NCBI GenBank assembly: GCA_945877765.1
Contig: CAMDWQ010000016.1
Coordinates: 1-32,143, forward strand
Reading direction: 5' to 3'
From: Candidatus Omnitrophota bacterium
GTDB taxonomy: Bacteria; Omnitrophota; Gorgyraeia; 2-02-FULL-51-18
Length of the DNA: 32,143 nucleotides
Shown: positions 713 through 16,465 of the stretch, one piece after another
Position numbering within the stretch: the first letter of the stretch is position 1
Layout: each line of letters starts with the position of its first letter
Notes under the pieces: model-generated
What the model was told of the DNA's origin: nothing
The model's input: the letters and a program-made list of their open reading frames with translations, nothing else
The model's database searches: none
Program-made: the position numbers and the translations under genes

Positions 713-3700
713 ATGAAGAAACCATCTATGTCTAAAAACGCTTTGCGCGGTATCTCGGTTTTTTTACTGGCCTCCTTATTTTCTCAGGAAATTATTTTTG
801 CTCAGGGCACTTTGCCATCCAGCCCCATTGCCATTCCGGATCAATCAGGAATCACCCGCAAGTCCGTATCAAAAAAGGGGCAAGACGTTATCATCAATAT
901 CCAAGACGCCCATTCCAAATTGGGCGCGCAGGAATCTATCAGCCAAATTCTCGACAGCCTTGTCAAAAATTATGATCTAAAACTGATTGCGCTGGAAGGC
1001 GGATCGGGCGCTATCGACACTTCGATTATTTCCAGTTTTCCCATCGAAGAGACCCGAAGAAAAGCGGCCACGTCTCTGATGCAAGAGGGAAAAATATCCG
1101 CCGGGGAATTTTACGCCATGGTTTCGGGTGAGCCGGTCACGCTATACGGCGTCGATGATCCGGCTCTTTACCGCGAGAACCTGGACGTTTTTCGAGCGCT
1201 TGTGGAAAAGAAAGTGGTGGTGCGTCAAGAGCTAAAAGGACTACAGCGCGCCTTGCACGAACTGGAGACCAAAATTAATTCTCCCGAGCTTATCGATTTT
1301 GCCCGTCACAAACTTTTACACCAAGAAGGGTCTTTTAAATTTACCGAGTACTGGGATTATTTTAGCCAAAAAGCAAAAGAAAAAGGGGTTGATCACACAC
1401 GTTATCCCAATCTTCAAAAATTATCCCAGATTGTCACGCTTGAAAAAAAGATCGATTTCAAAAAAGCGAGCGTGGAGAGAGGGGCGCTGATTGGGGAGTT
1501 AAACGGCCGGCTTTCGAAGTCCGATCTTGAAAAATTGATCTTGGAGTCTCTGCGATTTAAGCAAAACAAAACCTCGTCCGGCCGTTTCCATGAGCTGGTG
1601 GCAACTCTTTCACAAAAGACGGGGATTAGCCCCGAGTCCTACTCCAACATCATTCTTTATGCCGAATATGCCGTGATCTACGAGTCCATTGATCTTCTGT
1701 CGGTGCTGGAAGAAACCGCGGCATTTGAAAATGATATCCGTGAGAAAATTTTCCGCAATGACGATGAGCGGCAGCTTTCAAACCTCGTTCACTCAATCAG
1801 CATTCTTTCGCAGCTAGCGGACACCACTCTCTCCTCAAAAGATTACGAATTTTTTGTCCAAAATGAAGCCTCGTGCGAAATCGCCTCGATTCGCCGGGTT
1901 TTGCGCACACTCGGGGATAAATACCAAGTGCCCGCCCAGTCGTATGCCAATTTTGAAATTTTAGAAAATGCTATCCCCAACGCGAAACAGTTTTATAAGT
2001 TAGCAACCCTGCGTAACCAAGCGCTCATGGAAAATACGCTTAAGCGGATGAAAAAATCAGGTGTCCACGTCGCGGCGCTGGTGACGGGAGGATTTCACAG
2101 CGAAGGGATCTCCTCACTCATGGACAATGAAAAACTTTCGTACCTGGTGGTCATGCCGAAGTTTGACGAAAAGAGTGCTGATAGACCGTACATCACCATC
2201 CTGACGCGCAAACCCAAAGAATACGAAGAGCAGTTTAAAGATTCTGATTTTTATTTGGCTTATAGTATTGCGTCTGTGACCGAGGGGAGCCCCAACGCAG
2301 AGGCAGCGGTGAAGGAAAGAGTCGAGAAGATATTTCTCTGGGCCAATACCCAGAGCGGGAAATTATCGCCTTCTAACAGACGAGAATGGGTGGCGGAGTA
2401 TAGCAAGCAGACACAACTCTTTTATGAGACCACCGGCGAACGATCCTATCTAAGCCCTAAACAACTCGATGAATTGTACCTTCAAAAAGGGCGAGTCGCT
2501 CCTGATGGGAAGGTGACATTTACTACCGAAGCGCCTGTTTTTGACATTTTACCAAATCCGACAAAACCTGACAGGCGGTCTCCGCAAGCGTCTGCACCAG
2601 TTCTTGCACCTGTTTTGGCGCCTGCCATAGCATCTCCCAAACGAGTTCTCGCACCCATTTCAGCGCTGGTCCCCGCGCTTAACGCGGCAAGGTTGGCAGT
2701 ATCGGCTGAAAGCGCGCCACGTTTTATGTCCGATTCAACACTTTATCCCGGGATGGACATGAGAAACCCTGATCAGAGCCTGGGAAACCACTGGCTTAAA
2801 ACCCAGCTTGTGCTTTCCACGATGCTCAGTTTTTATGCCAACCCTCATATAGCCAAAGCGATTGAGGGAAGGCGGGGATATATTCCCTTTATCAGTATTG
2901 AGGCTAAAGCTAATCAGTTATTCGTTAGTCGTGGCTTATCTGCCACCAACGGTCGTTTTGGGTCTGATTTCACGGTATCCAAATACTTGGACCATCTAGA
3001 GGAAAAAGGAATTGTGCAGAGCTGGGTGAACGGCAAAGGTGTTGTCATGTTTCGTTTAAATGCCATTGCCGGTGACATGCAAGCTATTGCGGCACTCATG
3101 GCACAAGATGTGGATTTTGTGAAGCGAGATTTTGAGAATACGATGCAACCATCTTCCTCTTCGATAAACCGGTTTATCGGTGTCAACGAGCTCATGAAAT
3201 CATACACCCAGGCAACGGATACATTTTACCGGATGCCGGTGGAGGCTAAATGGACGGTGTTAAAAGCAGTTAGCCGTATGGACAGGGCTCTGCGAGATAA
3301 ATTTATCGATGAGCTTGATAAATCAGATTATGCCAATAGCCCTCTTGCGACCGCCATTCGAGAAATGATGGATTTGCCGGTTCCGCCAGATGCTGTGATG
3401 GATATCATCAATGCGCTTGAGGGGTCGGAGATTGCGTGGTTTTCGGCCGAGATGTCGGTTATTATGGGCGGATTAGGTCGTGTGAACATGTTTCACACCT
3501 CTGACATTCAGGCGGTGAAAGTATTTGCCGAGAGCCTCGGAAAGCATTTTGATTTTTGGACTTTCGAGCCTTTTTATCAATACGATGGCGCCGGCAATAA
3601 ATTATATGGCGTAGAGAATCAGGGTGCCAATGAAACTCTAAGCAATCTAAAATACAATGAGCTGCCCGACGGATTAAGTGATATTAGGATGCTAAAATCT

Positions 3701-6700
3701 TATCCAATCACGGTGGCGGGAAGACCGGTGACAGCGATTATTTATGAAGGCAAGACCAGGGACGGGCAAACCCGCTACTTTGCCGCTGATGCAGAGCGTC
3801 ATTTTGTCAAACAGATTTATTATTACCTCAACGAAACCAATGCGGATGCCCCGAAGCAGTCCGAATTTGAAGAGTTTTTTGCCAAGGCGGCTGAAATGCA
3901 TATGCTTTTTATGCAAGAAGAGAGGCGAAGGAGGTACAAAGAAGAAGGGAAAGCTAATAAGTGGAAGCCCTCCGTCTACCACTTTCATGATGGGCAAACC
4001 GCCCTTTTGTCTTACCGGCTTTCTGCCCGCAGAAGACATGCTAAGTTAGATCTTAATCCAGAGTCTGGGGAGGCATTGCTTAATCGTTCAATTGGTGGCC
4101 ATCAGACACACACCGTCGGTAATCGAGGAAGTTGGGAGAAAAACGATGTGATGACAGCTATCGAGGATGTTGTGCCAACCGCTTTCATGCAGAGTGAACT
4201 TCATTTTTGGGAAAGGTTGGGCCGTTTCGATCCAACGAGCGCCGCCCAGAGGACGTCCATGCTTCCGCCGACAAAAGTGTCAGGCAACCATCTTCAGCAA
4301 ACGGATAAATTTGATCCAAAAATACAGAGCATCGCGCTAACCAACGGGATGCATGTGGCGATCATGGCCAAATATTTCCAACTTTATATTGATGAGGTTC
4401 TGGGACCGGGCAAGTCCATCTGGGATTTAACCGTAGAGGATCTTCCGCGTGTGCGGGACTATGCCAGGAAAGTTTTGCTCCAAAATGGTAAATTTAAAGC
4501 ACTCTACAAAAACGCGAATAGGGTTGACGGTGAAGCGGACCTAAATTTACCCGACGAGCTTGACGCAAATATTCCCTTGGATATTTTTACCGGCAGAGGG
4601 GTGACGGAAAAAGCTAGCGGGAAAAGAGCCCATTATGAAAACTCTCTAAGGCACAGAGTGCTCGAATTGGATCGAAATGTGATTATTTATGCCAATGAAC
4701 AGACAAACAGCAGCTCCAAGCGGCTATGTCTAGAACTTGTTGAATCTGCACGAAAAGTCAACGCGAAGGCGGCGGCGCAAGGTAAACGCGGACGCGTGGT
4801 GGTGGTGACACGCTGGAATTTTGATGACCAATTAATGCTGGAAACCGCAGCTGATACCGGGATTAATGATTGCGATCCGGAAACGGGGGCGGCCGAATAC
4901 ACAGAGCTTGCATTTGGTCTTTTTGGACTTTTGGTGGTTGCTCCAACGCAAATGGAAGGGATTTTGCAATCTCATGGAGTGGTCGGTCGTACGGTATTCG
5001 TCCCCAGTCAACATAATTGGGAGGGATTTCGAGACCTGTTTGAAGAAATTAACCGTCTCCAGAAAAAAGACAGTAAAGGGTATTGGGAGCGGGCAGTGGA
5101 ATCTATCGCATACGCGAGAATCTTAAATTCTAAAAACACAACTTGGGAATTATTACGTCATTACAGCCGTGGTCTTGAGGCTTACCGGGATCCCGTGGGG
5201 TTGGTGAACCAGTGGATTGATCAAGCGGGAAGTATGGCGTCATTTAGAGCCCAAACTCAGCTGATTCCAGATTTATTCCGGGCAGAATTGGAAGCGCGAC
5301 TTAAGGCTGATGGGAACTTTAAAGCGATCGACTTGGGAGGTCAATCCCCCACGCAAGTTTATGTCAGGGCTGATCAGGGGCAATCAAAGCCTGTTATTTT
5401 GGCGGTAAGCAGGGCGTCTGTCCATGATCCCCAATCCCCAGTTGGAAGAGAACTTTATATCAGGTTAGCTCAAGAGCAAGTTAGCCAATTCGTCGGGGAT
5501 GCCCTTTTTGTTCGTCTTGTTGATGCTGTGACTGGGGAGTCATTGGGTCTTTTTGATCGCGCCGAGGTGACCCAAGGGAGCGGTGTCCCTATTTCTGCGA
5601 ATCCTGCTTTGGGTATTAGAGCCTTAAAACTTGAAGAGGCGCTCGTCCCGGGATTGGGACCACACATAAAAGAAGGTTCTGCATTTGGCAAAATTGTTGA
5701 AATGAAAAGGCGTGAGTTTGAAGCGTCTCTTAGAGCTGACCACGCCGATGTGAAGCCTTTCTGGAATGCCTTGCTTCAAGCAAAACGAAGGAATGATGAG
5801 CCCCAATACAAATGGAACGGCGGCGTAACGTATACGCGCCTGCCTTCTATTTTAGGGTTTGTGGATGCTTGGCTTAAGCTTAAGTCGGAGCCTATTCATT
5901 ATTCTAAACTTGTCGGACCTACAATTATCAAAAATGGTAATCATCTTGAGTCTTTTATTTTAAGGTACTTAAGTGAATTTGAGAGTAGCCAAGACTTATT
6001 TTCGCTTTTACCAGCATTAAGGGATCTCTTAGCAAGCAACCAAAAAAATCTTTCAGAGCTAAGTGATCCAAGTAGCCGAGAAGCGGTTGAAACCGTTGAG
6101 TATTCAATTGCCTATGCGGTAGCAGCTCTCCAAGCGGTTGAAGCAGTCTTGCGGGAAGGGCTCGAAACTCGTGGCGCCCGATTAGCATCATCCCCCGCCG
6201 TAACTGATTCTATCGTGGTAACAGCATCCGCAAGTCCTTTTCTCACACCTTCAGGTGTCTCGGCAGAGAATCCCGACGCCGCCCGTTTAGCGTCCGCACC
6301 CGCTGCTATCGCAACATCCGCAAGTCGTTCTCTTCCATCTTTAGATGTCTCGGCAAAGAAATTCAGCGCGAGCGTATCAAAACCTTCAAATCGTCTTCCC
6401 GCACCTTTTATTGCCCCGAACGAGAATCGCGTCGCTCTCGCATCAAACCGTCGCACACCGGACAAAACCCGTCGCGTTAGCAGAGCAAGCACTGGAAATC
6501 CGCGGCAGTTAGATCTGGCCCGAGTCATGCCCGAGGTGATCGTCGCGCTTAAGACAAACTCCGGCACGCACAATGAGCCGCTTTTGGTTAAAGCGCAAAG
6601 AGATTTGAGAGCCTATATGACCAACAAAGATGGCGGCGCTGTGGCCGAGAAATTTCGTGTGCATGCCGCCGGCGATACGGTTTTGTATGCCCAAAAAGCC

Positions 6701-7765
6701 GAAGCGGGATTTATGCACGTTATTGTCGGGGAAGATGAGTTAAGCGCGGCTAATATTTCTCAAACAGTTGATCAGATCTTTGGCGCGGTGGGCCGCCATC
6801 TCCAAGCGAAGGGCGAGGTGTTAAGTCTTTTGAATCGAATTCTTCTACGGCAGGAAGAAGCTGATGACGATCTGCAAGCCGAGCTGCGATCAGAGTCTAT
6901 TGCTTCATTACGCCAGATCGAGGCAAGCTTAGAGAAGAGTTTCTCTGCCGCGTCACCGTTTGTATTTCAAATCTCCGGCGGAAAATTAAGGGGGCTTTCG
7001 AGCACCAGCCAAGCCGTTTCTTTGAAGGATGTTTCTGCGCAACTTGCCGAGGCGTTTGCCAGCCCTGATACTACCGCTCTTTCAAGAGCAGCGGATTCTT
7101 TAGTGGAGCACCTAGCTTCGGGAACTGTCAATGTGACGGCACTTTATGATGCAATACAAAAGACGGTCAACCGACAATACGATGCCACGATCGCTGCTCT
7201 AGAACTTCGTTCGGGAAATTATTCTATTACGCTTGATGAGAGTATGTTGAGTAGTGGTGGGGTGGACTCTTTTGCCAAAAATATGCGGGAGATGGCATTG
7301 GAGATGCAGCGAGTTTTAGATAAAACTGAAGGCTCAGGGGCCAAGGTTCGGTTTAATTTTAGCGCTCTAACAGAGAACGGCGAAGAGCTTGCCAGTTCAC
7401 TTGGGCTTTTCAATGAAGTGCGCTTATTTCCAGAGGGTTCTAACAGGGCGGGGGAAATCAGGAAAGTTTTTGGAAGTAGTGCTCTTGGGAGTTCACACAT
7501 GATGGTGGCTCGCGGTCTGACGATCCCCAATCTCCAGAGCGGAGAATATTTGTTCAATATTGTACCGGTAGAAGACGGCCACGGAATTAGCGGTTCAGTT
7601 ATTTTTGCGGCCGCCCTGGCTTTGTCCGGCGGGCAGGCGCAGTTGCCACGCGTCAAAAGAACTCGCGACAACCGCACCTTTATGTACACGCCTTTAACAG
7701 AGGTCTTCAGCGATCTCATCGCCGCAATCCAGAACCAAGAGCTGGCGATAGGCACCGCCGCGTAA
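713..7765 (+). CDS. Giant secreted protein with EreA/TraB-like and degenerate GT5-like regions
   Basis: The product is 2350 aa from the ATG at 713; a TTG directly before it at 710 is an alternative start, and AAGGG at 694 is a distant Shine-Dalgarno. A signal peptide is clear: basic start, hydrophobic SVFLLASLFS, likely cleavage near IFA-QG. Residues 50-500 contain IQDAH (H67), ALEGG (E95) and VTGGFH (H462). This spacing of His, Glu and His resembles the EreA/ChaN/TraB superfamily (inference). Residues about 905-1440 resemble GT-B glycogen/starch synthases: SAEM..GGLG at 912-922, HFHDGQT at 1090, GGHQTHT at 1128, and a late E...TELAF.LFGLLVV block. The lysine of the family KxGGL motif is absent. 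Ala/Pro/Ser-rich linkers lie near 620-680 and 1815-1930. The last 400 residues are unrecognised. Function unknown; an extracytoplasmic, possibly inactive, carbohydrate-binding role is a guess. Confidence 0.85.
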   Translation: MKKPSMSKNALRGISVFLLASLFSQEIIFAQGTLPSSPIAIPDQSGITRKSVSKKGQDVIINIQDAHSKLGAQESISQILDSLVKNYDLKLIALEGGSGAIDTSIISSFPIEETRRKAATSLMQEGKISAGEFYAMVSGEPVTLYGVDDPALYRENLDVFRALVEKKVVVRQELKGLQRALHELETKINSPELIDFARHKLLHQEGSFKFTEYWDYFSQKAKEKGVDHTRYPNLQKLSQIVTLEKKIDFKKASVERGALIGELNGRLSKSDLEKLILESLRFKQNKTSSGRFHELVATLSQKTGISPESYSNIILYAEYAVIYESIDLLSVLEETAAFENDIREKIFRNDDERQLSNLVHSISILSQLADTTLSSKDYEFFVQNEASCEIASIRRVLRTLGDKYQVPAQSYANFEILENAIPNAKQFYKLATLRNQALMENTLKRMKKSGVHVAALVTGGFHSEGISSLMDNEKLSYLVVMPKFDEKSADRPYITILTRKPKEYEEQFKDSDFYLAYSIASVTEGSPNAEAAVKERVEKIFLWANTQSGKLSPSNRREWVAEYSKQTQLFYETTGERSYLSPKQLDELYLQKGRVAPDGKVTFTTEAPVFDILPNPTKPDRRSPQASAPVLAPVLAPAIASPKRVLAPISALVPALNAARLAVSAESAPRFMSDSTLYPGMDMRNPDQSLGNHWLKTQLVLSTMLSFYANPHIAKAIEGRRGYIPFISIEAKANQLFVSRGLSATNGRFGSDFTVSKYLDHLEEKGIVQSWVNGKGVVMFRLNAIAGDMQAIAALMAQDVDFVKRDFENTMQPSSSSINRFIGVNELMKSYTQATDTFYRMPVEAKWTVLKAVSRMDRALRDKFIDELDKSDYANSPLATAIREMMDLPVPPDAVMDIINALEGSEIAWFSAEMSVIMGGLGRVNMFHTSDIQAVKVFAESLGKHFDFWTFEPFYQYDGAGNKLYGVENQGANETLSNLKYNELPDGLSDIRMLKSYPITVAGRPVTAIIYEGKTRDGQTRYFAADAERHFVKQIYYYLNETNADAPKQSEFEEFFAKAAEMHMLFMQEERRRRYKEEGKANKWKPSVYHFHDGQTALLSYRLSARRRHAKLDLNPESGEALLNRSIGGHQTHTVGNRGSWEKNDVMTAIEDVVPTAFMQSELHFWERLGRFDPTSAAQRTSMLPPTKVSGNHLQQTDKFDPKIQSIALTNGMHVAIMAKYFQLYIDEVLGPGKSIWDLTVEDLPRVRDYARKVLLQNGKFKALYKNANRVDGEADLNLPDELDANIPLDIFTGRGVTEKASGKRAHYENSLRHRVLELDRNVIIYANEQTNSSSKRLCLELVESARKVNAKAAAQGKRGRVVVVTRWNFDDQLMLETAADTGINDCDPETGAAEYTELAFGLFGLLVVAPTQMEGILQSHGVVGRTVFVPSQHNWEGFRDLFEEINRLQKKDSKGYWERAVESIAYARILNSKNTTWELLRHYSRGLEAYRDPVGLVNQWIDQAGSMASFRAQTQLIPDLFRAELEARLKADGNFKAIDLGGQSPTQVYVRADQGQSKPVILAVSRASVHDPQSPVGRELYIRLAQEQVSQFVGDALFVRLVDAVTGESLGLFDRAEVTQGSGVPISANPALGIRALKLEEALVPGLGPHIKEGSAFGKIVEMKRREFEASLRADHADVKPFWNALLQAKRRNDEPQYKWNGGVTYTRLPSILGFVDAWLKLKSEPIHYSKLVGPTIIKNGNHLESFILRYLSEFESSQDLFSLLPALRDLLASNQKNLSELSDPSSREAVETVEYSIAYAVAALQAVEAVLREGLETRGARLASSPAVTDSIVVTASASPFLTPSGVSAENPDAARLASAPAAIATSASRSLPSLDVSAKKFSASVSKPSNRLPAPFIAPNENRVALASNRRTPDKTRRVSRASTGNPRQLDLARVMPEVIVALKTNSGTHNEPLLVKAQRDLRAYMTNKDGGAVAEKFRVHAAGDTVLYAQKAEAGFMHVIVGEDELSAANISQTVDQIFGAVGRHLQAKGEVLSLLNRILLRQEEADDDLQAELRSESIASLRQIEASLEKSFSAASPFVFQISGGKLRGLSSTSQAVSLKDVSAQLAEAFASPDTTALSRAADSLVEHLASGTVNVTALYDAIQKTVNRQYDATIAALELRSGNYSITLDESMLSSGGVDSFAKNMREMALEMQRVLDKTEGSGAKVRFNFSALTENGEELASSLGLFNEVRLFPEGSNRAGEIRKVFGSSALGSSHMMVARGLTIPNLQSGEYLFNIVPVEDGHGISGSVIFAAALALSGGQAQLPRVKRTRDNRTFMYTPLTEVFSDLIAAIQNQELAIGTAA
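6178..6369 (+). repeat. In-gene imperfect tandem repeat encoding the Ala/Ser-rich linker
   Basis: Two adjacent stretches (6178-6282 and 6283-6369) encode related peptides. Each begins ARLAS(S/A)PA, then has a TASAS or TSASR block, and ends with GVSAE or DVSAK. The unit is about 30-35 residues. It lies in the low-complexity linker between the GT-B-like region and the C-terminal region of the giant protein. A further ARLA-VSAES occurs in the earlier linker near 2689. Confidence 0.6.
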
Positions 7766-7901: not shown

Positions 7902-8642
7902 ATGCAAAAAAGGAATCTTTTTTTTAAGGCTCAATTGGCTTCTTTGGTCATTTTATTGTCATCAATACCAGCTTCTGCCGCGGTCTCGGCTGCTAATACC
8001 CCAGCGCCGGGCAGCGTTGGGGATCAGGTAGCGACTTTATGGCAGTTGATTGTCGCCGGCGGCGTGTGCATGATTTTTCAGGGACTTTTGTCAATTTTGG
8101 GGTTAGCGCTTATCCTTTATCACTTTAAAACGATCAACGTTAATCGTTTGGTGCCGGTGGATTTTTGTGAAAATCTGATGCTTCTTTTGGAAAAAAAAGA
8201 ATATGACAAAGCCATTTCTATCAGCAAGCAACAGGATAATCTGGTGTCCCAGATCGCTTTAAAAGTCCTGCCGCGTGTGGCTCGGGGGAAGCTGACACCC
8301 GCACAAGTGGAGGGTGTGATTCAAGCAGAGGGTAAAGCGCCTATTGAAAAAATGTGGCAAAACCTGGCATATCTTGGGGATGTCGCGGTGGTTTCGCCTC
8401 TTTTGGGTCTTTTAGGAACGGTGCTAGGCATTGTCAACGCGTTTCATTACTTTAAGGGCGGCTCGATTCATCCGGGAGTATTGACGCAAGGGTTGGCCAA
8501 GGCCATGGTTAACACGGTGTTTGGTTTGATTGTCGCGGTGGTCTGCCTTGTGTTTTATGCTTATTTTCGAGGGAAAGTAAGCGAAGCGACGTCTCGCGCG
8601 GAATCCGCGGCGACGGAAATGGTTCACGCGCTTTCGCGCTAA
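7902..8642 (+). CDS. exbB: MotA/TolQ/ExbB proton channel family protein
   Basis: The product (246 aa) is the channel subunit of a proton-motive-force-driven envelope motor in the inner membrane. It has an N-terminal signal-like hydrophobic stretch ending SSIPASAA, then a transmembrane segment at about 47-73. A cytoplasmic loop follows (EKKEYDKAISISKQQ...), then two C-terminal transmembrane segments. The loop leads into the family signature LAYLGDVAVVSPLLGLLGTV and then GLAKAMVNTVFGLIVAV. The ATG is preceded by AGGGAG at 7891 with good spacing. The extra N-terminal periplasmic segment is typical of ExbB forms rather than MotA. It begins a four-gene operon with exbD, a TPR gene and a VWA gene. 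ExbB, TolQ and AglR-type proteins cannot be separated by sequence reading alone. Confidence 0.9.
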   Translation: MQKRNLFFKAQLASLVILLSSIPASAAVSAANTPAPGSVGDQVATLWQLIVAGGVCMIFQGLLSILGLALILYHFKTINVNRLVPVDFCENLMLLLEKKEYDKAISISKQQDNLVSQIALKVLPRVARGKLTPAQVEGVIQAEGKAPIEKMWQNLAYLGDVAVVSPLLGLLGTVLGIVNAFHYFKGGSIHPGVLTQGLAKAMVNTVFGLIVAVVCLVFYAYFRGKVSEATSRAESAATEMVHALSR

Positions 8643-8662
8643 CCAAGAGGGGACTCGAAACC

Positions 8663-9082
8663 GTGATTAATTTTAAATCCCGCGAATCTTCTCGAGCGTT
8701 GCCGGCGGTGCAGGTGGTCGCGCTGATTGACGTGTTGTTTGTGCTGCTTTCTTTTTTTATGTCGATGTTTATCCACTTAAATTTTGAGTCTCAGCTGGGG
8801 ATCTCGGTACCGCAGGCAAGTTCTTCCATCGAGGCCAAAGAGGCGTTTCAGGAGATCGTCATCAATATTCTCCGTGACGGCACGACGGTGATTAACGAGA
8901 AAAGTTTTTCGCCAGCTGCTCTAGAAGCACTTCTTATTAAAACAGCACAAATCTATCCTGGGCAATCTGTGGTCGTGCGCGCGGATGAAAAAACTTACCA
9001 TGAATTTGTGGTCCGGGTGCTGGATGCCTGCGCCAAGGCAAAAATATGGAACATCTCTTTCGCCACTACGAAAGAGAAATAA
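8663..9082 (+). CDS. exbD: ExbD/TolR family protein
   Basis: The product (139 aa) starts with GTG at 8663, 20 bases after the exbB stop, behind AAGAGGGGA (8645). It is the partner of the ExbB-type channel: a short cytoplasmic tail, one transmembrane helix (VVALIDVLFVLLSFFMSMFI) and a periplasmic domain. The membrane Asp that carries protons in this family is present as D23 in ALIDVLFVLL. The C-terminal half has the family layout, with IVINILRDGTTVIN followed by VVVRADEKTYHEFVVRVLDACAKAKI. The following TPR gene may begin inside its 3' end or just after its stop, so the two are co-transcribed. Confidence 0.92.
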   Translation: MINFKSRESSRALPAVQVVALIDVLFVLLSFFMSMFIHLNFESQLGISVPQASSSIEAKEAFQEIVINILRDGTTVINEKSFSPAALEALLIKTAQIYPGQSVVVRADEKTYHEFVVRVLDACAKAKIWNISFATTKEK

Positions 9083-9096
9083 GAGGCGTACGCGCT

Positions 9097-11487
9097 GTGC
9101 TGAATGTGCTGCGACAGGGCCTGTCACTGCGGGAGCCCATTGCGTCCTCGGGCTTTCGCCCTGCGGGTCAATGGGCGCCCACCCTCCGCGCCACCCGTCG
9201 CTGGAGCTTTCTAGTGATTGTGAGCTTATTTTTTTTATTGGGATTATTTGCAGGCGAAAATAAATGTTATGCGGAGACTCAGAACCAAAATTCTTCCGGG
9301 TCGCTGGATTTTGCGAATGGGCTTTATGCGCGGAAGATGTATGGGCCGGCGATCAGTGAATACCAAAAATTTATTCAAGCAAGTCCCGAGTCTGCGGATG
9401 CTGCCTCTGCCTATTATCGCCTGGCGGAATCTTATTATTTTTTAAAAGAGTACGCAAAAGCGATTAATAGTTTTGAGTCCTTCCGGAGCAAATTTCCCAC
9501 GGATGAAAGAAGCCTGGCGGCCCTCCTTCGTATCGGCACGGCTCAGTATTTTCTTAAAAATTACCCCGCCGCTCACCGCGTTTTTTCTGATATCGCTGCC
9601 GTGAAGGCGGATGACAATATCCAAGCCGGCGCCTTATTTTATAGTGCTAAAACGAGTGAGGCGGAGGGTAAGCTGGATGAAGCGATTTCGACGCTGCGGC
9701 GGTTGACCGACGATTATCCCGAGACGGACTACACGATGTATGCGTGTCTTTTTGCGGGAGATATTTTTGCGGCTCGTAAAAACGAGGACGAAGCGATTCG
9801 TGTTTACCGTTTGGTCGCCGATGGGGTGGTGAGTCCTCCCAAGGCTCAGGCGGCTGAATCGGCGGTTGAGGAAGCCACCCTTAAGGCGGCAGACCTCTAC
9901 TTTTTTCAAAAAAAATATTCTAACGCCAGGGCTTATTACCAAAAAGCCTATGACCGGCCTAAGCGGGCTTCGCTTGATCGGATCTTGACGGGATTGTTTT
10001 TTGCCAATTTTTATTTAAAAGATCTCGAGGCTTCCAAAAAACTTCTTTTGGCGAATGAGGCCTATTTAAATAAAAGCCCAGGCCACGTCGACATTGATTA
10101 TCTTCTGGGAGTGTTGGCCCATGAAAAAAAAGATTTTGTATTTTCATTGGAGCGGCTAGATCAGATTCTAAAAGATCCAAAGGCTCCTGGGGATATGAAG
10201 GCGAAGGCTTTGGCGGCGCGCGCGTATATTCAGGCGGAAAGTTTGAGGGATGAAGGAAAACTCGAGGAGGCTCTCCCTAGCTATCTGGAGGCGGCCAAGA
10301 GCGGCGATAGCCTGTATTCACTGCCCGCACTTTATCAGGCGGGATTTTTGAGTGCCCAGCTTAAGAAAAATGAGGACGCGCGACAGCTCCTTGCCAGCTA
10401 CATGGAAAAAAACCCAAAAAGCGATGAAGCCGCGCGCGCCGCGCTAGAAAAAATCCAGCTAGACCTTGACGAGGAGAAATGGGATGCCGTGGTGCTCGCC
10501 TCGAATCAATTTCTTGAAACGTACCCTAAGAGCCGCTATGAAGATGTGGCGCTCTATAAACTGGGCATGGCGCTCGGCGGGCAGAAAAACGATGACCGCG
10601 CCGCGTTGATTTTTGAAAAATTAATTTTGAATCAAAAAAATTCGGTACTTTACCCTGAAGCTCTTTACGGCGCCGCCGCAAGTTTTGACAACGCGCAAGA
10701 TACGCGCAAGGCGATTAAATACTACGAAGAATTTACGCAAAAGTACCCTTCTCACCCGCTGTATCCAGGAGCGCTGGCGCGGCTTGGTTTTCTTTATGTC
10801 CGTGACAAAAACTATGAGACAGCGGCTCGGTTTTATGAAGATATCTTGCTCAACAAGCCCGAGATTCCCCTGGAATCTAGCGCGGCTTTTTGGGTGATCC
10901 GGCATGATTTAAACCATTCGCAATACGACCGGATGAGGGCGGTGCTTACTCTATTATCCCGCCGGTATCCGGATGAGGTGTTGACGCATGAGATTAATTT
11001 TTTTCTCGGTGAGAGCTTGATGGGTTTAAAAAATTATACGGATGCTTTGCAGTATTATTCCAAATCGGTGGAAGCCAAGCCCGACGGTCCCTACGTGCCG
11101 TATGCGTATCTAGGGATGGGAATCGCCGCCGCGGCCCAAGACCACCTCGATACGGCGGAGAATTTTTTTGTCAAAGTGCTGGGTTTTGAAAGCGGCTTGG
11201 ATGCGGCGCTGCGTGCACGATTTGAGCTGGCTAATTTGTATTTGAAGCGGGGCAATCTCCAAGAGGCTTCCAAAGCTTTTATGCACGTGGCCATTTTGTA
11301 TGATGATGAAAAATATAGTTCGGCCGCCCTTTACAAAGCCGGGGAATGTTTTGTCAAACTCGGCAATAAGGATGAGGCTCAAAAAGTATTTGAGGAGCTG
11401 GTCAAGCGCTATCCCAAGTCGCCCTGGGCGCGCCGTGCCACGCATTTTTTTAACCAGGAAAACCTAAAGGCACCCCATGGACACTAA
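9097..11487 (+). CDS. Secreted tetratricopeptide-repeat protein of the ExbBD-VWA operon
   Basis: The product is about 796 aa. A hydrophobic segment (SFLVIVSLFFLLGLFAG, then KCYAETQ) looks like a signal peptide or anchor, and a continuous array of TPR-type repeats follows to the C-terminus. Typical units are SAYYRLAESYYFLKEYAKAI and ALYKAGECFVKLGNKDEAQ. It is probably a periplasmic scaffold. Three starts are possible: ATG 9046 inside exbD, GTG 9097 behind AGAGG (9082), and GTG 9214 behind GGAG (9203). I chose 9097 for its Shine-Dalgarno and lack of overlap. The first 36 codons are largely an F5 repeat, giving an unusually long pre-hydrophobic region, so the original start may have been displaced. 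Its 3' end overlaps the VWA gene by 11 bases. Confidence 0.85.
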   Translation: MLNVLRQGLSLREPIASSGFRPAGQWAPTLRATRRWSFLVIVSLFFLLGLFAGENKCYAETQNQNSSGSLDFANGLYARKMYGPAISEYQKFIQASPESADAASAYYRLAESYYFLKEYAKAINSFESFRSKFPTDERSLAALLRIGTAQYFLKNYPAAHRVFSDIAAVKADDNIQAGALFYSAKTSEAEGKLDEAISTLRRLTDDYPETDYTMYACLFAGDIFAARKNEDEAIRVYRLVADGVVSPPKAQAAESAVEEATLKAADLYFFQKKYSNARAYYQKAYDRPKRASLDRILTGLFFANFYLKDLEASKKLLLANEAYLNKSPGHVDIDYLLGVLAHEKKDFVFSLERLDQILKDPKAPGDMKAKALAARAYIQAESLRDEGKLEEALPSYLEAAKSGDSLYSLPALYQAGFLSAQLKKNEDARQLLASYMEKNPKSDEAARAALEKIQLDLDEEKWDAVVLASNQFLETYPKSRYEDVALYKLGMALGGQKNDDRAALIFEKLILNQKNSVLYPEALYGAAASFDNAQDTRKAIKYYEEFTQKYPSHPLYPGALARLGFLYVRDKNYETAARFYEDILLNKPEIPLESSAAFWVIRHDLNHSQYDRMRAVLTLLSRRYPDEVLTHEINFFLGESLMGLKNYTDALQYYSKSVEAKPDGPYVPYAYLGMGIAAAAQDHLDTAENFFVKVLGFESGLDAALRARFELANLYLKRGNLQEASKAFMHVAILYDDEKYSSAALYKAGECFVKLGNKDEAQKVFEELVKRYPKSPWARRATHFFNQENLKAPHGH
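9106..9204. repeat. F5 repeat copy inside the 5' end of the TPR gene
   Basis: The ends are GCTGCGACAGGGCCTG (from 9108) and CACCCGTCGCTGG (to 9204), forming imperfect terminal inverted repeats. Both ends match a second copy at 28237-28336, as does an internal TGCGGGA. The inner stem GCCCATTG (9135-9142)/CAATGGGC (9169-9176) differs in sequence from the equivalent stem of the other copy but pairs equally well. The smaller GGGC-TTTC-GCCC hairpin at 9150-9161 lies inside it. The copy is translated as part of the TPR protein's N-terminus. Confidence 0.65.
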
Positions 11488-13276
11488 CGGACGGTATTTT
11501 TACGAAAAAGAATGGTTTGGGCCTCTGGCCGCTTCTTTGTCATTTCATCTTCTTTTAATTTTAGCGGCTGTTTTTCTTCGTTTGGGTGTGCTCGAGGAAA
11601 AACCCCAAGATAAGCGTTTGGAGTTTCATTTAAATAAAGTGCAAGCAGGCACCTCGCTTTCGGGGCAGCCCGGCGGTGGCGGCTCGGGATCTTTGGGACG
11701 AAGCCAAAAAGAAACTTTTTTTTCTACGGGGCAGGCCGTCAATGACAACAAAGCGTTGAGACAAGTACAGGCGCGAATACTTGATGAGAAAACAGACACG
11801 GATAACGAGGCCACGCGCATTCCGATGGAAAGCCAGCTTCATCCGCTTCCCTCGTCTTCGAGAAACCTTGATTCTCTTATCTTTGAAAATGAAAAAGAAG
11901 ACGCCACGCGTCAATTGAAGGTCCGGCAGGAATCGCTTCGGGATTTTTATCAAAAAGATGCCGAAAAAAGCATCAAGGCTATTCCTCCTTCGGGAGAGGG
12001 CCTGATGAATAGCCTTTCGCAGTCTCTGAGCAAGGTACGTCTGTATTCTCCTGAAAACATGGCGGTGGACCCCGAGGAGGGGATGCCTGGATTTACCCCG
12101 TCGCGGTCTAGCGGCAGCGGTCCGGGCGGCATCGGAAGCGGCGATGGGCGGGGGATTGGCAATGGTGTCGGCGATGGTCCGGGTGGGCTGGGGGTCGGTG
12201 AGGGTGGTGGTGAGGGTCCTGGCGGCGGCGCTTCGAAGTATGAGCCCCTTGATAATTTTATGGATATCCAGGTGTATACCTATGAAGCTCCCAGCGATCA
12301 TCAAAAGTATTTTATGATCAAGATTTATGCGAAGCCGGGCTCCCAGAGCCTCCAGGTGATGCCAAAAGAAATCCTGTTTACTATCGACTGTTCGCTGAGT
12401 ATTTCCAAGGACCGGTTGGATGAATTTAAAAGGGGCATTCGTTATTGCCTGACTCATTTAAACCGCGGCGATGTTTTTAATATCATCGCCTTTAAAGATC
12501 AGGTTCAATTTTTTTCCGAAAAGTCGGTTACCGCTGATCCAGAAACGATCAAACGCGCGGAAAAATTTGTCTCGGATCTGACGGCCAGCCAGGCCACCGA
12601 TGTCTACAGTGCTTTTTCAAAAATCATCGAAAAGCCCGCCGCCTACGAGCCCTCGAATATTATCCTGATTTCGGACGGCCGCCCCACCTACGGGGTGGTC
12701 AATTCGCGTGAGCTGATTAACTCCGTCACACGATTGAATAAAAAATCACGCCCAGTGTTTGCTTTCACCGGAGGCGCTAAGGTCAACCGCTATCTTTTGG
12801 ATTTCATTGCTTATCAAAATCGCGGATGGTCTGAGTTTGTGCGTAAGACAGGGGATCTAGATGAAGGCCTGGGAAGTTTTTATGACAAAATTAAAGACCC
12901 TATTTTTCTTAATTTGCGTTACCGGCTCAACAATCTTGACGCGGAGGATGTTTTTCCTAAAGCACTGCCTGATTTTTACCGCGGCGCTGAGTTTACGCTC
13001 TATGGGCGCTATGACAGCCAAAATGATTTTTCCATGCAGCTTTTAGGGGACATTGATCGAAAAACCAAAGAGCTTATTTTTAGCCGCGCGCTCCAAGAGG
13101 CCAAAAAAGGCACGGAAGAAATCAAGCGGGGATACGCTTTCAACAAAATTTATTATTTGATCAGCCGGATGACGGCAGAGGGTCAGACACCGAAGCTGCT
13201 TGCGGAAGTGGACGCATTGAGCCGCGAGTACGGGATACAGACGCCTTATTCGTCGGAGATGGAAAAGGTAGACTAA
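11477..13276 (+). CDS. Membrane-anchored von Willebrand factor A domain protein
   Basis: The product (599 aa) has one N-terminal membrane helix (residues about 15-37) like a TonB-family anchor. A long polar region follows, then a Gly-rich linker (about 205-255, many GGxG units). A VWA domain begins near residue 300. Its MIDAS is complete: D304-C-S306-L-S308, T374 in ATDVYSAF and D400 in SDGRPT. The VWA domain should bind a divalent metal and a partner protein in the periplasm. The ATG at 11477 overlaps the end of the TPR gene by 11 bases, so the genes are translationally coupled. With exbB and exbD upstream, the anchor and flexible linker suggest that the protein receives mechanical energy. 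This role is inferred. CglB-like adhesins and Bat-type VWA proteins are alternatives for comparison. Confidence 0.88.
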   Translation: MDTNGRYFYEKEWFGPLAASLSFHLLLILAAVFLRLGVLEEKPQDKRLEFHLNKVQAGTSLSGQPGGGGSGSLGRSQKETFFSTGQAVNDNKALRQVQARILDEKTDTDNEATRIPMESQLHPLPSSSRNLDSLIFENEKEDATRQLKVRQESLRDFYQKDAEKSIKAIPPSGEGLMNSLSQSLSKVRLYSPENMAVDPEEGMPGFTPSRSSGSGPGGIGSGDGRGIGNGVGDGPGGLGVGEGGGEGPGGGASKYEPLDNFMDIQVYTYEAPSDHQKYFMIKIYAKPGSQSLQVMPKEILFTIDCSLSISKDRLDEFKRGIRYCLTHLNRGDVFNIIAFKDQVQFFSEKSVTADPETIKRAEKFVSDLTASQATDVYSAFSKIIEKPAAYEPSNIILISDGRPTYGVVNSRELINSVTRLNKKSRPVFAFTGGAKVNRYLLDFIAYQNRGWSEFVRKTGDLDEGLGSFYDKIKDPIFLNLRYRLNNLDAEDVFPKALPDFYRGAEFTLYGRYDSQNDFSMQLLGDIDRKTKELIFSRALQEAKKGTEEIKRGYAFNKIYYLISRMTAEGQTPKLLAEVDALSREYGIQTPYSSEMEKVD

Positions 13277-13394: not shown

Positions 13395-14519
13395 ATGCAT
13401 TCAACCCGAAAACTTAAGATACTTCACCTAACCAGCCACCTGGATACAGGGGGAATCACTAGTTACATCCGCCTTTTGGGATTGGCCATGTCCGAGCGGG
13501 GACACCGCATTTCAGTTTTGTCCGCCGGCGGTGCCCTTGCGGGAAAATTTGCTGCCAATGGGATTAAGACGCCTATTTTCCCCGTGCGCAAAAAAAGTAT
13601 TGTGGACCCCTCCTTATACATGACACTTCCCGGGATTTCAGCCCTGATCCAGAAAGAGAAATATGATATTCTCCACGCTCATACGCGTGTGACGCAGGCA
13701 CTTTCTTTTTTTCTCGGCCGTGCGAACAAGGTCCCGGTGGTGACGACCTGTCATGGTTTTTATAAGCGCAATTTAGGAAGAAAGCTTTTTCCGGCTTGGG
13801 GCAGCCGGGTCGTTGCTATCAGCGAGCCTGTAGCGCAGGAATTAAAAAAAGTTCACCGGGTTTTGGAGTCCAAAATTCGTGTGGTGCCCAATGCAATTGA
13901 TCTCAAGGAAAGCGTTTTCCGTTTTTCACAGCATAATGCCCAAGAAATAAGGCTCCGGCACAAGATTCCTGAAGGTTCGATAGTGGTGGGCTGCACTGCG
14001 CGCCTAGTGCGTGACAAAGGCCAGGAAATTCTTGTACGCGCCATTGCGGAACTTCTTCCCACACACCCTGAAATTTTCCTTCTTTTGGTGGGATCTGGGC
14101 GAGAGAAAGAAAATCTTGAGAAAACCATCCGTGATTTGCATCTTAAGGGCCGCGTGGCGCTTGTCGGGCAGCTTGAAGATATATCCGAGGCTTTGGCGGT
14201 GACGGATATCTTTGTGCATCCGGCATTTCATCGTGAGGGTTTTGGTTTGGGGATTGCGGAGGCGATGGCAGTGGGGCGTCCTGTGGTGATTACTGATATT
14301 CCCGCAATAAACTCTATTTTTCGGCCCGGTGAGTGCAGTGTGATGGCCAAACCCGCGGATGTGTCGTCTCTGGCTGGAGCGATTCGCTTTCTAATGGAAG
14401 CTCCCGGTGAGAAAGTGCGAATCGCGCAAGCCGGCCGGCATCTGGTCGGTTCTCTTTGCGATGTGGACCGTATGGCGGATCAGATGGAAGCAATTTATCG
14501 GGAGCTAGCGCCCTCATGA
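13395..14519 (+). CDS. GT4-family glycosyltransferase
   Basis: The product (374 aa) is a retaining GT-B glycosyltransferase that transfers sugar from a nucleotide-sugar donor, probably to a lipid or cell-surface glycan. The N-terminal acceptor domain starts ILHLTSHLDTGGITSYI, with HAHTRVTQ near residue 97. The C-terminal donor domain has VVPNAIDL, then GCTARLVRDKGQEIL. The EX7E motif is E281-GFGLGIA-E289 followed by AMAVGRPVV. All of this is normal for the family, and the length is typical. The stop overlaps the start of hemDE in an ATGA, so the two genes are coupled although no functional link is obvious. The start is chosen by homology, because the conserved beta-strand begins at residue 8. 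Confidence 0.9.
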   Translation: MHSTRKLKILHLTSHLDTGGITSYIRLLGLAMSERGHRISVLSAGGALAGKFAANGIKTPIFPVRKKSIVDPSLYMTLPGISALIQKEKYDILHAHTRVTQALSFFLGRANKVPVVTTCHGFYKRNLGRKLFPAWGSRVVAISEPVAQELKKVHRVLESKIRVVPNAIDLKESVFRFSQHNAQEIRLRHKIPEGSIVVGCTARLVRDKGQEILVRAIAELLPTHPEIFLLLVGSGREKENLEKTIRDLHLKGRVALVGQLEDISEALAVTDIFVHPAFHREGFGLGIAEAMAVGRPVVITDIPAINSIFRPGECSVMAKPADVSSLAGAIRFLMEAPGEKVRIAQAGRHLVGSLCDVDRMADQMEAIYRELAPS

Positions 14520-16465
14520 AGCTGGCCAATCTAAACGTCGTTTCTTTTGAGAGCCGGCACGCGGAAACCATTGGAAGTCTTGTACGCGTCCAGGGAGGAC
14601 TGCCGTTTTTAGCGCCGTCGATGAAGGAAGTGCCCCTGGAAAACAATCCTGAGGTTTTCTTATTTGGTGAAAAAATTTTTGCGGGAAAAATAGATATTTT
14701 GATCCTCCTTACCGGCGTGGGCACTAAAGCGCTTCTGTCAATTTTGGAAATGCGTTATCCGCGGGAAAAGATTTTGGAGATTTTTTGCAAGACCACGATT
14801 GTTCCCCGCAGTCCCAAACCTATCCGCGTACTCCAGGAATGGAAAGTCCCCTTTGCCATCACCGTGCCAGAACCTAATACCTGGCGTGAGCTAATTGAGT
14901 CTCTGGATCAAAACAAGGAAATACTTCCTCTTTTAGGAAAAACCGTCGCCGTGCAGGAATATGGAGTCACTAACCACGAGTTGACCGATGCCCTTGAAAA
15001 AAGAGGGGCAACTGTTTTACGTGTGCCAGTCTACCGCTGGGCGCTTCCCGATGATCTAGAGCCTTTGAAAGCAGCCATTCGCGCGATCAGTGACGGCAAA
15101 ATGGAAGTGGCGGTATTTACGACGGCCGTCCAAATCGAACATGTCTTGCAGGTGGCTAAAACGATGGGGTTGGAGCAAGCCCTCTTAAGCGCTTTTAAAA
15201 CCATGGCGGTTGCTTCCGTGGGTCCTGATTGTTCAGAGGCATTACGCGCCCGCGGCGTATCGGTGGATATTGAGCCTGAAAGTCCGAAAATGGGTCCCTT
15301 GGTGCTGGAGATTGCCTTAAAAGCTAAAAAAATTCTGGCAAATAAAGTGTCATCCCCGAATTTATTTATCGGGGATCAAACTGGGTATGATTCCCGATTA
15401 AAACTTTCGGGAATGACGAGTGATGGTGAGTCGCTTAAAAACAGCACATTCTTAAAAGCCTGCCGCCGCCAAAAATCATCTTTTACGCCCGTGTGGTTGA
15501 TGCGTCAAGCAGGCCGTTATATGAAAGATTATCGGGATATCCGCGAAAAGACTCCGTTTCTCGATCTTTGTAAAAATACAGATCTTGTCACCGAAGTAAC
15601 CGTCCATGCCCAGGAAAAAATAGGAGCGGATGCGGCTATTATTTTCTCTGATATTCTTTTGCCTTTGGAGCCGATGGGATTGAACCTTTCCTACGTCAAA
15701 GGAGACGGACCTTCTATCAGCAATCCCGTCCGTGGAAAAAAAGAGGTGGAAGTGCTCAAGGATACTTTCGAGCTTGAAAAACTTTCCTTTGTCTATCAGT
15801 CGATTCGTCAGACGCGCCGCGCGCTAAAGTCTGATGTGCCGCTCATTGGGTTTTCGGGGGCACCCTTTACACTGGCGTCCTACATGATTGAGGGGGGCGC
15901 CACGAAAGATTTCTCAAGAACCAAAACCATGATGGTTTCCGATGAGGGTTTGTGGAAAATATTAATGCAGAAAATTGTAACCGTTTCGGTGCGGCATCTG
16001 AATGCGCAGATAGAGGCCGGGGCCCAGGTGGTGCAGATTTTTGACAGTTGGGCGGGAGTGTTGACCCCGCAAGAGTACCGGCAATACGCCATGCCTTATT
16101 CGGCTGAATTGATACGGGGCATCCGAAAAGGAATTCCTGTCATTCATTTTGGAACCAAGACAGGTGATTTTTTGGACTCTATGCGTCAGGCTGGGGGAGA
16201 TGTGATTGGTGCTGATCATCGGATTAGTTTAACCGAGGCTTGGAAAAAAATTGGACACGACCGCACCATCCAGGGAAATCTAGATCCCGAAATTTTATGT
16301 GGATCGCTTATCGAAATAAAAAAGCACGTGGAAAGAATTTTAAAAGAAGCCGATGGACGCCCAGGACATATTTTTAATCTGGGGCATGGGGTATTGCCGC
16401 ATACACCGGAAGAAAATGTGATTGCGCTGGTGGATATGGTGCATGAAATGAGCAGGAGAGAGTGA
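14516..16465 (+). CDS. hemD-hemE: HemD-HemE fusion: uroporphyrinogen-III synthase / uroporphyrinogen decarboxylase
   Basis: The product (649 aa) should catalyse two successive heme steps: ring closure of hydroxymethylbilane to uroporphyrinogen III, and decarboxylation to coproporphyrinogen III. Residues 1-275 are HemD-like (LLTGVGTKAL, VAVFTTAVQIEHVL, VASVGPDCSEALRARG). Residues about 310-645 are HemE, with MRQAGRYM, IFSDILLPLEPMGL, GFSGAPFTLASYMIEGG, HFGTKTGDFL and FNLGHGVLPHTPEENV. Residues 278-301 between them are encoded by an F1 repeat (15348-15417). An in-frame ATG at 15413 lies in that repeat and could allow separate HemE translation, but no Shine-Dalgarno is evident. The ATG at 14516 overlaps the GT4 stop (ATGA). 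Fused HemD proteins are known, but a repeat-built linker is unusual. Confidence 0.92.
   Translation: MKLANLNVVSFESRHAETIGSLVRVQGGLPFLAPSMKEVPLENNPEVFLFGEKIFAGKIDILILLTGVGTKALLSILEMRYPREKILEIFCKTTIVPRSPKPIRVLQEWKVPFAITVPEPNTWRELIESLDQNKEILPLLGKTVAVQEYGVTNHELTDALEKRGATVLRVPVYRWALPDDLEPLKAAIRAISDGKMEVAVFTTAVQIEHVLQVAKTMGLEQALLSAFKTMAVASVGPDCSEALRARGVSVDIEPESPKMGPLVLEIALKAKKILANKVSSPNLFIGDQTGYDSRLKLSGMTSDGESLKNSTFLKACRRQKSSFTPVWLMRQAGRYMKDYRDIREKTPFLDLCKNTDLVTEVTVHAQEKIGADAAIIFSDILLPLEPMGLNLSYVKGDGPSISNPVRGKKEVEVLKDTFELEKLSFVYQSIRQTRRALKSDVPLIGFSGAPFTLASYMIEGGATKDFSRTKTMMVSDEGLWKILMQKIVTVSVRHLNAQIEAGAQVVQIFDSWAGVLTPQEYRQYAMPYSAELIRGIRKGIPVIHFGTKTGDFLDSMRQAGGDVIGADHRISLTEAWKKIGHDRTIQGNLDPEILCGSLIEIKKHVERILKEADGRPGHIFNLGHGVLPHTPEENVIALVDMVHEMSRRE
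15348..15417. repeat. Composite F1 element inside hemDE
   Basis: Two F1 palindromes are joined head to head by a short spacer (AACTGGGTA). The element starts TGTCATCCCCGAA, has TCGGGGATCA mid-way, then TGATTCCCGATTAAA, and ends TTTCGGGAATGAC. It is 70 bp long and matches 19793-19862 in the same orientation and 19051-19121 in reverse. It is read as SSPNLFIGDQTGYDSRLK and following residues, with no stop. Confidence 0.9.

Follow-up and report, generated by a model that had tools for sequence, protein, structure and literature searches.

We found that the gene at positions 713 to 7,765 of the window, by which we mean the whole 32,143-nucleotide stretch analysed (contig CAMDWQ010000016.1, here C16, of the Candidatus Omnitrophota bacterium assembly GCA_945877765.1, whose genome, G000, comprises 1.65 Mb in 39 contigs), encodes a member of a family of giant proteins in which a signal peptide and a constant head are followed by variable cargo. 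The head carries an invariant set of residues resembling the active site of the TIKI superfamily, the tails are punctuated by a pentapeptide, [GA]AR[LM]A, that is rare in other proteins of the genome, and most of the giants end in [AS]A. The interpretation that we tentatively prefer, and to which we would give slightly less than an even chance, is that the giants are exported modular polyproteins that would be cut at [GA]AR[LM]A, with their enzymes released to act outside the producer's cytoplasm.

The signal peptide, the head and the giant family

The window gene is a single intact open reading frame (ORF) on the plus strand, as are all the features of the giant given below, and its product (2350 aa plus stop; P0001) had been described in an initial annotation, made from the sequence alone, as a giant exported protein. 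This description was borne out: the N-terminus (MKKPSMSKNALRGISVFLLASLFSQEIIFA-QG) is signal-peptide-like by hydropathy, and own-genome paralogs with an intact N-terminus have similar signal peptides ahead of the head, with a basic n-region and an h/c-region of the SLxLIxxFLxQ[ED]xxYAAP type. From hydropathy and the family consensus the signal peptide is predicted to span residues 1-30 (713..802), with the cut between FA and QG, and no further convincing transmembrane segment was apparent by hydropathy beyond it. Searches with the whole of P0001 found nothing credible among NCBIfam families and PDB sequences, and in Pfam a weak starch-synthase match alone (residues 998-1109, E 0.0014).

The initial annotation had also called the N-terminal region EreA/TraB-like, with a His/Glu/His layout at H67, E95 and H462, and had proposed structure prediction with a fold search as the check. 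For the head (residues 56-497, 878..2203) this check gave a confident AlphaFold model (predicted local distance difference test, pLDDT, 92), a beta-sheet core with a large all-helical insertion, and a Foldseek comparison with the PDB in which EreC (6xcs) was the top match (probability 0.94, E 0.022), with Bcr135-type EreA proteins, HopBA1 and ChaN lower down. The Pfam family ChaN (PF04187, Tiki superfamily) matches 7 of 74 heads, at best with an E of 3.7e-5, and a head profile run against PDB sequences found no credible relatives. The layout, too, stood: H67, E95 and H462 are unchanged in all 22 own-genome heads aligned and are invariant across the 74 heads, drawn from many Omnitrophota genomes, and so are not a chance arrangement. 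Identity to the window head falls to 19% within that alignment, in which the invariant positions are D65, A66, H67, E95, G146, Y153, Y428, R434, G459, G460, H462, P482 and Y493 (P0001 numbering).

In RRSP, a TIKI endopeptidase, E3900, H3902, E3930 and H4030 are essential and R4001 is also required (PMC6254334). By pattern and spacing, as opposed to a residue-level superposition, the counterparts in the head are D65-x-H67 (905..913; RRSP E3900-x-H3902), E95 (995..997; E3930) and H462 of a GG[YF]H motif (2096..2098; H4030), all predicted to be catalytic, together with R434 (2012..2014; R4001), a candidate for the conserved active-site Arg. E95 lies 28 residues past H67, and this His-to-Glu spacing (67/95) is the same in RRSP (3902/3930) and in Bcr135 (85/113) (PMC6254334). 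The 2His/2Glu plus Arg site of the superfamily is thus present in the head, with Asp standing for one Glu. Membership of the head in the TIKI superfamily, with a complete predicted active site, is supported, and because D65-x-H67, E95, R434, H462 and the 28-residue spacing parallel RRSP, the head is probably an active hydrolase. Runs such as RMEDGG and HPPSSILHPPS within several heads look like in-frame insertions of elements similar to the short repeats upstream of the window giant (20-400); these repeats match 116 places genome-wide and, because the matches fall on both strands, are probably palindromic interspersed elements.

A search of the own genome with P0001 gave 29 matches. Almost all of these involved residues ~55-500, and almost all lay within very long ORFs. 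At least part of the head was found in 27 own-genome ORFs, mostly of 1.8-5.5 thousand amino acids (kaa), but the true count of giants is ~24, because a number of contigs break off within a head or a tail, so that some of the ORFs may be two ends of one gene; C4:40001-109024 reads as N, and any giants there are uncounted. The head-bearing ORFs occupy ~13% of the readable sequence, or ~14-15% when head-less tail fragments are included, and every intact giant opens with a signal peptide and the common head of ~440 aa. A scan of the genome collection for the head returned 120 loci, of which 80 were kept, all from Omnitrophota except one from Auribacter; the head is present in 41 of 59 related genomes, in ORFs of up to 12,701 aa. 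At the DNA level, identities of 80-93% cluster in the heads, and the tails differ. Most tails are unrelated to one another (the main exception being a pair on C13 and C27 with similar tail blocks), and among the relatives 19 of 69 tails resemble another tail. This is the pattern expected if heads had spread by duplication or conversion while cargo was exchanged. A second family of giants, head-less, was also observed in the own genome (C10:44640-57356, 4239 aa, and C26:83-6967, 2295 aa); its two members have a common N-terminal region of ~830 aa and a similar signal peptide.

The pentapeptide and the C-termini

The pentapeptide was first spotted by eye, as a recurring RLA/GAR in an alignment of tails, and was then checked on the giants of other genomes. 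[GA]AR[LM]A occurs at 153 sites in 77.7 kaa of own-genome giants, and, among all other ORFs of 120 aa or more in the genome, in four, some of which are probably not genes. We considered whether composition bias could account for this and rejected it, since [GA]ARL[AST] has 161 matches in the giants, as compared with 7 across the 386 kaa of other ORFs and with a mean of 1.5 in shuffled sequences. A DNA repeat or recombination site was likewise rejected: the 153 sites use 125 distinct DNA spellings, and selection therefore acts on the protein. Among the tetrapeptides of the tails, ARLA shows the strongest over-representation (129 copies, 41-fold), and GARL/ARLA ranks first for enrichment in the giants of three other genomes (G002, G005 and G010), with enrichment in two more (G001 and G009).

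The sites are placed between modules. None falls within a head, and none within a recognised domain, where 7.5 would be expected; the first usually lies 36-161 aa past the head, the median spacing is 349 aa, or about one domain, and the flanks, rich in Ser, Thr, Pro and Glu, have no consensus. A hexokinase module (1043-1431), for example, is flanked by sites at 998 and 1439. P0001 itself has an AARLA between the head and the glycosyltransferase-like module (residues 658-662, 2684..2698), a GARLA at residues 1821-1825 (6173..6187) and a second AARLA at residues 1856-1860 (6278..6292), where a Ser/Ala-rich linker begins. The module beyond this (residues 1861-2350, 6293..7762) has no recognisable relatives and ends in AIGTAA-COOH. 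An [AS]A C-terminus of this kind was found in 24 of 28 own-genome giants or tail fragments, one of the four exceptions being cut by a contig end, as compared with 18 of 964 other ORFs (1.9%; p 7e-33), and in 10 of 14 relatives that are complete and 1500 aa or longer. The last ~15 residues are often helix-like and contain AAR[LM]A (e.g., LSQAARMAEQSA); an NCBIfam search of the C-termini gave nothing convincing.

If the giants are polyproteins, the Sec-type signal peptide would export them, and an endopeptidase would recognise [GA]AR[LM]A in the linkers and free the modules. The head would be the prime candidate for this protease, because its superfamily includes sequence-specific endopeptidases (Tiki and RRSP), with a partner protease as the alternative. 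Several observations weigh against such a scheme. Esterases and haem binders, too, are found among TIKI members, and the head gave weak E-values in Foldseek (0.022 at best), because the helical insertion of ~300 residues dominates. The motif, moreover, is sparse in the head subtype of the window protein, which has three sites, while one giant of this subtype (L248) has none in 6058 aa and a close head relative (L250) none in 4154 aa. Giants in other families of the class (G020, G029, G043 and G055) have the head and no site, which shows that the head does not depend on the motif; judged by its distribution, the motif belongs to this family of genomes and not to the head as such. Finally, a Sec signal gives export to the periplasm only, and we identified no second translocation step.

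A short linker motif could also be a docking or sorting signal, and this is the main rival to cleavage. Under such circumstances, [GA]ARLA and the [AS]A C-terminus would be bound by an exported or periplasmic receptor or translocase that chaperones, threads or anchors the full-length giant, and the head would be a structural or ligand-binding TIKI domain. Position in linkers, a frequency of about one site per module and unconserved flanks suit docking equally well, and the A-A-R-[LM]-A copies near the C-terminus fit it better than cleavage, as a cut there would free almost nothing. However, the invariance of the complete TIKI active-site set suggests catalysis, and the giants of the other families, with heads and large tails but no motif, indicate that export itself needs no such signal. 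We regard docking as a possibility of some substance, though not a probable one.

The glycosyltransferase-like region and other cargo

The middle third of P0001 had been likened in the initial annotation to glycogen synthase, with a GT-B enzyme using nucleotide sugars lying behind a signal peptide as the resulting paradox. Profile comparisons uphold the likeness to glycosyltransferase (GT) families GT5 and GT35 for residues 792-1486 (3086..5170), and the paradox is real and general across the giant family. A profile of 19 members aligned by hhalign with the own genome's GlgA over 328 columns (probability 94.6, E 6.5e-8; unrelated control, probability 0.3) and matched alpha-glucan phosphorylases in the PDB (E 3e-4). 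PF08323 scored 22.8 bits against a cut-off of 22.7 in the genome search and 18.8 bits, below the cut-off, in hmmscan. The motifs run in the order GGLGRV, DxQ, THT, NGD, GRLVxEK and E-G. H1133, R1295, K1300 and E1415 correspond to H161, R300, K305 and E377 of E. coli GlgA; all four are kept, and these catalytic residues are invariant in the family members aligned. The donor-binding lysine of KxGGL (GlgA K15) is not kept among the 19 members, in which GGL is present and the Lys varied, nor, as the alignment reads, is the pyridoxal phosphate (PLP) lysine of the phosphorylases. We call the region GT5-like and not a GT5 glycogen synthase because K15 is replaced; it appears to be a retaining GT-B-like enzyme of a family of its own. 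An AlphaFold model built from two sequences had a pLDDT of 37.6, and assignment of the GT-B fold accordingly draws on the profiles and conserved catalytic residues. Among the 292 genomes of the class, 26 contain a relative of the region; one such relative (L212, G068:C1:85443-87299) lies within an ORF of 39,687 aa, close to the 39,678 aa reported for a Velamenicoccus archaeovorus giant (PMC10066038).

The other tails carry cytoplasm-type enzymes of many kinds, some of them intact. In the own genome they include PPDK, FBPase, GH77 (4-alpha-glucanotransferase), hexokinase, beta-CASP MBL, M23, DnaJ, FHA and HEAT domains, as well as many stretches without any domain match; among relatives we found phosphoglucose isomerase (PGI), transketolase, SecA-like domains (three members), methyltransferases, GHMP kinase, NUDIX, L-PSP, YkuD, LysM and others. 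Enzymes of sugar metabolism are over-represented. The hexokinase is of the eukaryote type, occurs nowhere else in the genome, and belongs to a family absent from 14 of 14 control prokaryotes. In a relative's giant of 3145 aa (L085, G292/G011 C21), a PGI (E 5.7e-191) lies in frame with the signal peptide and head and is intact, with both PGI signature motifs kept, and an ordinary, divergent PGI is found elsewhere in the same genome. The own genome similarly has an ordinary GlgA and an ordinary PPDK besides the giants, whose GlgA-like and PPDK copies are thus extra; the notion that the giants are sole copies of core enzymes was rejected on these grounds. In one giant (G000 C1:47063-57391) the PPDK domains are reversed, the mobile domain of the phosphoenolpyruvate (PEP) utiliser preceding the ATP-grasp domain. 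L057, L062 and L066, whose tails hold the SecA-like DEAD/P-loop domains, match the own genome's SecA-sized ORF C3:106141-108714; a translocase-like domain is oddly placed behind a signal peptide.

Alternatively, one could envision the giants as surface or adhesive coat proteins, with degenerate enzyme-like modules serving as building blocks or binding domains. This has been proposed for other Omnitrophota giant ORFs (PMC10066038), and could account for the HEAT, TPR, FHA, LysM and LRR modules of some tails and for the missing K15 equivalent in the window GT family. It is nevertheless improbable given the invariant catalytic H/R/K/E of that family, the intact L085 PGI, the lack of transmembrane helices past the signal peptide of the window protein, and the absence of adhesin domains from own-genome giants in Pfam scans. 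Nor do we see much prospect for a purely periplasmic explanation, in which the cargo would form an envelope sugar pathway independent of any host, its substrates leaking or being transported in. A Sec signal peptide leading to the periplasm, the failure to find a delivery apparatus and the excess of sugar enzymes would all fit; however, the periplasm is normally without ATP, ADP/UDP-glucose and S-adenosylmethionine, and the cytoplasm already has ordinary versions of GlgA, PPDK and PGI.

On the polyprotein interpretation, the freed enzymes would work beyond the cytoplasm of the producer, the likeliest site of action being within or at a host or prey cell from which ATP and nucleotide sugars would come, and the window protein would act as an exported glucan-modifying glycosyltransferase. 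Omnitrophota are regarded as host-dependent or predatory (PMC10066038). Carried to its full extent, this would be a bacterial polyprotein system, in which dozens of exported giants per genome, each with a TIKI endopeptidase head and exchangeable metabolic enzymes, would be cut at a lineage-specific [GA]AR[LM]A code and passed into host cells, whose sugar metabolism they would reshape; we think this wider proposal rather unlikely, although worth stating.

Known systems, significance and genomic surroundings

The head resembles TIKI superfamily members (EreA/EreC, ChaN, TraB, Tiki, RRSP and HopBA1) in its predicted beta-sheet core, D/E-x-H, spacing of 28, conserved Arg and late His, and differs in its large all-helical insertion between strands, signal peptide, giant variable tails and Asp for the first Glu. 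The GT region likewise has the motif order of GT5 synthases and GT35 phosphorylases and the equivalents of the four GlgA residues, but it lacks K15 and, by our reading of the alignment, the PLP lysine, and is embedded in exported giants. MARTX toxins, of which RRSP is a module as well as a TIKI endopeptidase (PMC6254334), are also giant exported proteins with enzyme modules meant for proteolytic release, a release that we infer for the present giants. In contrast to MARTX, the TIKI domain here is the constant N-terminal head and not cargo, export would be through a Sec signal peptide, and pentapeptides provide the punctuation; neither RTX repeats nor a cysteine protease domain was found in Pfam scans of P0001 and own-genome tails. 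A constant N-terminal region with interchangeable, unrelated tails recalls polymorphic toxins, although the tails here are metabolic enzymes several modules long as opposed to one small C-terminal toxin. Pfam scans gave no toxin domain, the gene following the window giant is ExbB, and no search was aimed at immunity genes near other giants.

A precedent for the host-supplied step may be found in Chlamydia, of the same PVC superphylum, which secretes GlgA, GlgB, GlgX, GlgP and MalQ, its GlgA working on host UDP-glucose (PMC4829429). The proposed giants would share with it an exported glycogen synthase and 4-alpha-glucanotransferase using a host nucleotide sugar (PMC4829429), whereas in Chlamydia ordinary-sized enzymes leave by type III secretion, and here giants carry Sec-type signal peptides. 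If the proposal is correct, it would represent a second route, beside chlamydial type III secretion, by which glycogen and sugar enzymes of PVC bacteria come to lie outside their own cytoplasm.

Giant Omnitrophota ORFs are already known and are among the least understood features of the phylum. Those published are, like ours, very long exported ORFs, and are called poorly conserved, with few domains; in the portion of the report considered here, neither a shared head nor a punctuation motif or signal at the C-terminus is named (PMC10066038). We found no report of a shared TIKI head, pentapeptide or C-terminal signal in the literature covered, a scope outside which preprints and most subscription papers fell, and the letters of the motif returned unrelated uses only. 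Together these features allow the "poorly conserved giants" to be treated as a single family, open to recognition, dissection into modules and testing. Should [GA]ARLA prove to be a cleavage code, it would represent a systematic bacterial polyprotein strategy to which roughly a seventh of the coding capacity of this genome is devoted.

Downstream of the window giant (7902-13276), genes for ExbB, ExbD, a long TPR (YbgF/BamD-like) protein and a VWA protein stand in a row, possibly as an operon for an energised envelope system; this arrangement was not seen beside other giants, except for ExbB and TPR matches at one relative's locus (L129). Further along, a single ORF (14456-16465) carries both HemD (uroporphyrinogen-III synthase) and HemE (uroporphyrinogen decarboxylase) domains.
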